Of a stretch of 35,357 bases of DNA, positions 1 through 32,436 are shown one piece after another (the stretch's first letter is position 1; every line of letters begins with the position of its first letter). This stretch comes from Candidatus Falkowiibacteriota bacterium. Its GTDB lineage: Bacteria; Patescibacteriota; Patescibacteriia; Patescibacteriales; UBA12465. The notes beneath the pieces were generated by a model that did not search any database, had not been told where the DNA came from, and saw nothing but the letters and a program-made list of their open reading frames with translations. The DNA lies in contig JAACPL010000011.1 of assembly GCA_009995495.1 (NCBI GenBank), positions 1 through 35,357 of the forward strand, given 5' to 3'. A program made the translations under genes and the position numbers.

Positions 1-66
1 TGGTCTGGACGAGTGAGCTTTTCGCATGCTGGCGAAAAGCGAGCGAGAGAGTCCCTCTCGCGGTAC
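1..66 (+). ncRNA. 3' part of a structured RNA-like repeat unit (copy 1, truncated by window start)
   Basis: ctggacgagtga + hairpin GCTTTTCGC-atgctg-GCGAAAAGC + gagcgagagagtccctctcgcggtactta; the same layout as copy 2 at 220-282, with different stem bases but preserved pairing. GC-rich against an AT-rich background. Confidence 0.55.
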
Positions 67-78
67 TTAAAGGAAAAA

Positions 79-110
79 GGTAGGTCGAAAGACCTGCCTT
101 TTTTCTTTAT
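79..110 (+). terminator. Intrinsic terminator after copy 1
   Basis: GGTAGGTC-GAAA-GACCTGCC followed by TTTTTTCTTT. The one imperfect pair is U-G on the plus transcript and C-A on the minus, favouring plus. Confidence 0.7.
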
Positions 111-112
111 TT

Positions 113-282
113 GCGAGAGGGGCTTGAACTGGTTGGAAGCGAGACGCGAGAGAGGGCGGAAGCCCGAACGAGCGGACGAGCGTCGGACAAACTGCCGGGG
201 GCAGTTTGGACGCCAACCCTGGACGAGTGAAACCGCCGCACTGCTGGCGGCGGTGAGCGAGAGAGTCCCTCTCGCGGTACTT
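113..282 (+). ncRNA. Candidate structured non-coding RNA (copy 2, complete)
   Basis: Possible closing helix GCGAGAGGG (113-121)/CCCTCTCGC (267-275); GGTTG (131-135)/CAACC (214-218); GGGC-GGAA-GCCC (154-165); GCGTC (180-184)/GACGC (209-213) enclosing AAACTGCC-GGG-GGCAGTTT (189-207); hairpin ACCGCCGC...GCGGCGGT near 232-254. Followed by a terminator hairpin. Confidence 0.55.
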
Positions 283-322
283 AATAAAATAGACTAGCAC
301 TTTTGTGCTGGTCTATTTTATT
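283..322 (+). terminator. Intrinsic terminator after copy 2 (possibly bidirectional, also serving the minus-strand NUDIX gene)
   Basis: AATAAAATAGACTAGCAC-TTTT-GTGCTGGTCTATTTTATT, an 18-bp stem with one U-G wobble on plus. Confidence 0.7.
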
Positions 323-367
323 AAATAATTGGCTAAAAACTAAAAATTAATTTAGCGCCAAAAAAAA

Positions 368-32019: not shown

Positions 32020-32072
32020 AAAAATGTGTTTTAAATTATAATAAAGTTAATTTGTATTTTGCTATTTCGGGG

Positions 32073-32436
32073 CAGCTATAAGCCGGATTCTGTTTTAGCG
32101 ATCATTTATCTAAGACTAGTTGTTACCAACTAGTTCAAGCGAGCTACTTTTTCTTATCTTAAAAAGATAAGTTTGCTCTTGCTTCAGATAGGGTTTACCA
32201 CGACTCTCCGTCACCGGAGGCCGAAAAAAGTAGCTTAAGAGTTGCCCCTTAAACACCTAATTTCTTTTCACCTTTCATTTATCAAAAGATAAACTAGTAT
32301 TGTCTCTGTGGCACTTTCCCTAATCCGCCGGAACGGATTGGTGGGCATTACCCACTATCTTTTCACGAAGTCCGGACTTTCCTCTCCTTTCAATTTAAAT
32401 CAAAAGGAGCGATCGCCCGCTCACCCCTAACAGCTC
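32073..32436 (-). ncRNA. rnpB: RNase P RNA (bacterial)
   Basis: Minus strand GAGGAAAGTCCGGACTTC near the 5' end, AGAGTCGTGGTAAACCC, ACAGAATCCGGCTTAT at the 3' end; P1 AGCTGTTAG/CTTATAGCT. Ends approximate. Confidence 0.95.

Follow-up and report, generated by a model that had tools for sequence, protein, structure and literature searches.

The window analyzed here, 35,357 nt long, is the entire contig C35 from the draft genome (940 kb) of a Candidatus Falkowiibacteriota bacterium. At its start lie two copies of a repeated unit, and the window opens inside copy 1. Both belong to a family, not described before, of short DNA units without protein genes that fold strongly and lie directly behind tRNA genes in Patescibacteria. 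A tandem array of such units, anchored at tRNA-Leu(CAA), the tRNA gene that closes the separate contig C7, is already under way where the window starts. An earlier note, made from the sequence alone, had described two sets of conserved blocks, each enclosing a hairpin and followed by a terminator. Indeed, both repeats are present as claimed (CTGGACGAGTGA at 5–16 and 219–230; a perfect 30-nt repeat at 41–70 and 255–284), and the hairpins of copies 1 and 2 differ in sequence with the pairing kept in both. The two terminator hairpins are inverted repeats (arms 68–86/91–109 and 278–300/305–327) with one wobble each, which reads as G·U on the plus strand. Furthermore, copy 2 folds with −83.8 kcal/mol (z = −6.1 relative to 200 shuffled sequences), and the closing helix proposed for it is real.

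The repeated AGTCCCTCTCGCGGTACTTAA turned out to consist of the tRNA-Leu(CAA) 3′ end and a few additional bases, the same as at the end of contig C7. Extension of copy 1 to the left, as had been suggested, ends at the contig start, which cuts the core; the matching tRNA-Leu(CAA) end is the one on C7, and the array very probably joins C7 and C35. This join is supported by gene order: in the congener G010, RlmN lies within ~1 kb behind tRNA-Leu(CAA), and in the window NUDIX-RlmN comes behind the array. The plus-strand signal, noted before as running opposite to all genes of the window, is explained by the plus strand being the strand of tRNA-Leu(CAA); a separate transcript is unnecessary for it.

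Table 1. Elements of the tRNA-Leu(CAA)-anchored array at the start of the window
Feature	Positions	Strand	Evidence
Unit 1 core, 3′ part, cut by the contig start	1–49	+	Partial covariance-model match 1–59
Pieces of the unit 1 core: conserved CTGGACGAGTGA (5–16); apical hairpin GCTTTTCGC/GCGAAAAGC (17–40); GAGCGAGAG (41–49)		+	
Copy of the tRNA-Leu(CAA) 3′ end (AGTCCCTCTCGCGGTA) followed by CTTAA; closes unit 1	50–70	+	Matches the final 21 nt of C7 exactly
Palindrome resembling a terminator, with A-run and T-run, separating units 1 and 2	68–109	+	Inverted repeat
R″ GCGAGAGGGGCTTGAAC	113–129	+	Reverse complement (16/17) of tRNA-Leu(CAA) T-loop, T-stem, and part of the acceptor strand
Unit 2 folded core	130–263	+	Covariance-model match 117–273, 151.8 bits; fold; covariation
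First elements of the unit 2 core: P2 GGTTGG/CCAACC (131–136/213–218); P3 arm with GGAA loop; P4 hairpin AAACTGCC..GGCAGTTT		+	
Later elements of the unit 2 core: CTGGACGAGTGA (219–230); P5 hairpin (232–254); GAGCGAGAG (255–263)		+	
Second copy of the tRNA-Leu(CAA) 3′ end	264–284	+	T-stem strand pairs with R″, closing the unit (113–124 with 264–275)
Terminator-like palindrome behind unit 2	278–327	+	Inverted repeat

A unit is ~220 bp long, contains no gene, and is built in the order terminator, R″, folded core of ~135 nt, and exact copy of a tRNA 3′ end. This tail usually equals the exact last 15 to 20 nt of the resident tRNA, from about T-loop position 58 onward, and includes CCA in lineages that encode CCA. 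R″, at the unit start, is the reverse complement of the GTTCRANNCCC of the resident tRNA (T-loop and T-stem). It pairs with the tail in the closing helix P1, which together with P2, enclosing the arms P3 and P4, and the hairpin P5 makes up a three-part fold. R″ also tracks tRNA position 57 (A57 goes with T in 5/5 and G57 with C in 38/41 cases); since this T-loop position covaries and lies outside P1, a long P1 does not account for all of R″. In locus L213 (G015) the inverted copy is complete, and tRNA tail, terminator, and R″ form a single palindrome; the window comes close to this (16/17). Terminators are unlike even between units with 98.5% identical cores, and the terminator may therefore not be a fixed component of the unit. 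As a separate observation, tRNA terminators change very fast: L205 and L206, from close genomes with near-identical tRNA promoters, have quite different terminator stems.

Copies were found by DNA search in 20 of 60 relatives, every one in the same family. A covariance model built from 25 copies then recovered 88 copies in 26 of the 39 family genomes (Candidatus Falkowbacteria), so that the homologues and the model that the earlier note had asked for are now at hand. The same model matched in 16 of 380 sampled genomes of the phylum, 13 of which belong to other families or classes, and an exact-pattern search with organism names returned mostly Candidatus Falkowbacteria, Candidatus Buchananbacteria, and other Patescibacteria. 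No match was obtained in IMG/VR (exact-pattern search) or in the INPHARED phage and PLSDB plasmid collections, and on this basis a phage or plasmid origin was rejected. Our literature search, with its limited coverage of subscription papers and preprints, found no description of such units. Among the 72 copies with at least 300 nt of upstream sequence, 53 begin 6 to 71 nt (median, 53) behind a same-strand tRNA gene, covering 16 anticodons, and 8 more lie farther along tRNA-anchored arrays. A second, unrelated core family (C) was seen at tRNA-Leu, tRNA-Pro, and tRNA-Ser (GCCGGAGCGA...GGCCGGGTCGGGGCGCTTAG...GACCGTGACCGA; L196, L068, L086, L252, and L261:2100–2400). Its units have the same R″/tail layout as the main family, and G009 has hybrid C/A units.

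Mobility of the units is well supported: their insertion and retargeting are evident from orthologous sites that are empty, copies that have decayed, and near-identical cores that sit at unlike tRNAs in separate genera. Of the 14 congeners compared at tRNA-Leu(CAA), most have a plain terminator, and G015 carries a unit with a different core. At tRNA-Gly(GCC), the site is empty in G012, and in G002 it is occupied by a unit and, in addition, by an ordinary element that bears an integrase, with matching sequence downstream; the same comparison includes a remnant (L209), and G013 retains only a remnant. The cores at tRNA-Gly of G014 and at tRNA-Ser of G018, which belongs to another genus, are 94% identical, and therefore cores move and their ends are fitted to the tRNA at the new site. 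Tandem units can also be identical.

Several arrays enclose 1 to 13 kb of cargo genes, and units lie at the borders of some inserted gene islands. The cargo comprises EutH at tRNA-Ser(GGA) in G003, CYTH and Fic at tRNA-Glu in G030, an ABC transporter, MarR, ArsR, and a DsbD-like protein at tRNA-Gln in G009, and a PEP-utiliser, NYN, and HD at tRNA-Ser(GCT) in G007. The tRNA-His array of G325 carries Fic and a reverse transcriptase adjoining sequence that resembles the variable region of a diversity-generating retroelement (DGR) (L247:7459–8478). ART-like proteins of ~190 to 206 amino acids recur in three tRNA-anchored arrays (L107, L110, and L146). At tRNA-Ser(GGA), close genomes with equal flanking genes differ in the size of the insert, 1.3 kb in G003 versus ~13 kb in G009.

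The fold is under strong covariation. In an alignment of 62 distinct sequences fitted to the covariance model, 34 of 36 pairs showed double changes (27 of 36 in an independent MAFFT alignment), and the covariation score was 0.661, compared to 0.075 to 0.118 for slid pairings; none of 500 shuffles reached it. This bears out the compensatory change read from two copies in the earlier note. Likewise, no RNA class could be recognized: an Rfam covariance-model search of the region gave only weak matches, all far below gathering scores, and a known RNA family is therefore ruled out. The plus strand is the better-folding strand in 63 of 64 cases. However, the GU:AC ratio is ~35:12 in the units versus 92:12 in tRNA stems of the same genomes, and this weaker GU excess is compatible with either RNA or single-stranded DNA. 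The alternative of a palindromic repeat element, raised before as the less likely one, is right in that copies are dispersed and insertion-like; yet they covary, so this is not exclusive with a structured family.

In search of an enzyme, we found each class missing from some carriers. Tyrosine recombinases are lacking in G243 (one contig) and G298, both with intact units, and serine recombinases in G392, G298, G009, and G030. No RVT_1 protein was found in the one-contig genomes G003, G023, and G243 or in G016, G213, and G009, and IS110 recombinases were absent from 11 of the 12 carriers tested, so only 1 of these 12 has the recombinase that an IS110 bridge RNA would need. A dedicated resident recombinase from any of these classes was therefore rejected; transient elements may supply the enzyme, or the process may be unlike any of these. 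Tyrosine recombinases of 269 and 281 amino acids (L042, G000:C12; L234, G392:C5) scored best on the integron integrase model TIGR02249, but below its cut-off (215 and 236; cut-off, 265). Recombinases of similar length are also present in genomes without units, and these integron-integrase-like proteins were dismissed as the unit enzyme for this missing association. TnpB-like cutting with the tail as guide was rejected by reasoning only, since such a guide would direct cutting of the intact tRNA next to every unit.

In sum, we favor the view that the units are small, non-autonomous (integrase-less) mobile cassettes anchored at tRNA genes, with the folded core as a recombination site comparable to an integron attC or the att site of a tRNA island; we give this a probability of roughly 0.45. 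That the fold is the recombination site and that an enzyme acts on it in trans is our inference, as none of the recombinase classes tested is shared by all carriers. In this model, the recombinase would act at the T-loop, and the R″/tail helix plus the core would form a folded single-strand site that is used in an attC-like manner against the tRNA T-arm as the target. The copied tRNA end and the cassette-borne terminator would keep the tRNA functional, which would make insertion harmless. Several points weigh against this model. The absence of tyrosine and of serine recombinases from the carriers named above is one. Another is that the closing helix folds, but the unit ends read GGGATTCGAAC and GCGATAAATCCC, and inspection of the sequences shows none of the canonical attC boxes RYYYAAC/GTTRRRY. 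The GNRA-like loop and the tandem G·A loops look RNA-like. Moreover, if cassettes were simply exchanged at the T-loop, a move between different tRNAs would leave a tRNA with the wrong acceptor strand; contrary to this, tails match the resident tRNA, and hence the tail must come from the target. A bolder proposal, which we hold only tentatively, is a programmable mobile element whose core takes an inverted T-arm copy (R″) and a direct 3′ end copy from each target tRNA gene, and which could thereby colonize most tRNA genes and build cargo arrays by a new enzyme and mechanism.

The RNA-like features could also mean that the unit is a structured noncoding RNA. Its plus strand would be transcribed by read-through from the tRNA, fold, and act, for example, as a guide or recognition RNA that pairs via R″ (11 to 17 nt) with the T-arm, either of the tRNA or of its gene, and recruits a protein. 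The covariation, the better folding of the plus strand with GU exceeding AC, the GNRA-like loop, and the purine-rich internal loops are all in line with this, as is an R″ whose complementarity covers the entire T-loop of the resident tRNA, beyond the need of P1. Nevertheless, we consider it rather unlikely: the unit sits between two terminators, where promoter room is not evident, the GU bias stays below that of tRNA stems, and units are patchy, absent or decayed at orthologous tRNAs. The lack of an Rfam match and of IS110 in nearly all carriers tested points in the same direction. Of the undescribed structured RNA family proposed earlier, the undescribed, covarying, and structured family stands; an action as a transcribed RNA would be possible, though the lack of evident promoter room, the weaker wobble bias, and the patchiness speak against it.

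Two further explanations start from the tRNA-derived ends. If the core were an RNA reverse transcribed by a trans-acting enzyme using tRNA 3′ sequence, as in a short interspersed element (SINE), tail and R″ would both be made from the target at insertion. This would account for tails that reach about the tRNA 3′ end (with CCA where encoded) and fit the new tRNA, for an R″ that forms the inverse copy as far as position 53, and for the complete palindrome of L213, and a DGR-like reverse transcriptase does lie inside one array. With RVT_1 missing from six carriers and multi-kb cargo islands between units that are hard to account for, we deem it quite improbable. Duplicated tRNA ends are, on the other hand, the classic mark of ordinary tRNA-targeting phages and islands, and the units might be their scars, the fold being only the arm-site region for the integrase of a single old family of elements. 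An ordinary integrase-bearing element adjoins the unit at tRNA-Gly in G002, and islands have a separate conserved right end, TTCAGTTCGGATATAGTCC. However, covariation over ~130 nt kept across families and classes would not be expected from scars, nor would retargeting of near-identical cores and gene-free tandem units, which makes this explanation very improbable.

Like integrons, the units form cassette arrays, each ending in a folded imperfect palindrome with covarying arms, and at tRNA-Ser, tRNA-Gln, tRNA-Glu, and tRNA-His cargo lies between sites with one anchoring site. Unlike in integrons, the anchor is the tRNA T-arm rather than attI, there is no integron integrase (IntI) across all carriers, and the units are mostly gene-free, bring along a terminator as well as a tRNA 3′ end, and have a conserved core sequence. 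With tRNA-targeting islands and prophages, which use a tyrosine recombinase and cross over in the T-loop, they share the direct repeat of the tRNA 3′ end on both sides of the insert, the T-loop break point, the hotspot behavior, and a tRNA that stays functional. They differ from such integrative elements in being ~220 bp units without integrase but with a large conserved fold, in the inverted T-arm copy, and in one core being found at many different tRNAs. Dictyostelium tRNA gene-targeted retroelements (TRE) and yeast Ty also insert at a fixed short distance from many kinds of tRNA genes, but they sit outside the tRNA, copy no 3′ end, and encode a reverse transcriptase, whereas the tail and R″ of the units are tRNA-derived and reverse transcriptase was not found in several carriers. 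Finally, miniature inverted-repeat transposable elements (MITE) and repetitive extragenic palindromes or bacterial interspersed mosaic elements (REP/BIME) are likewise short, dispersed, palindromic, non-coding, and multi-copy; the units lack recognized terminal inverted repeats or a RAYT-type context and have tRNA-specific placement and tRNA 3′ end copies. Overall, the units fall outside known RNA families and ordinary tRNA islands and, judged by the defining features tested, outside integrons as well; a categorically new mechanism is possible.

To our knowledge, few routes of gene capture are known in Patescibacteria. If our model is true, tiny folded units that colonize tRNA genes, leave them functional, and bracket accessory islands would give a very large bacterial group a platform for acquiring genes. 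The refitting of both unit ends to each new tRNA goes beyond any recombination system considered here and makes the mechanistic question testable.

Two observations stand apart from the units. Several islands have a common 19-nt right end, TTCAGTTCGGATATAGTCC, with a diverged tRNA tail and a terminator behind it (L265 to L269; L266 is G000:C13:7713), and island starts often lie near GTTCCAAAG; these right ends and starts are possibly the attachment ends of another mobile class. The window also contains a bacterial RNase P class A RNA at 32064–32428 on the minus strand.
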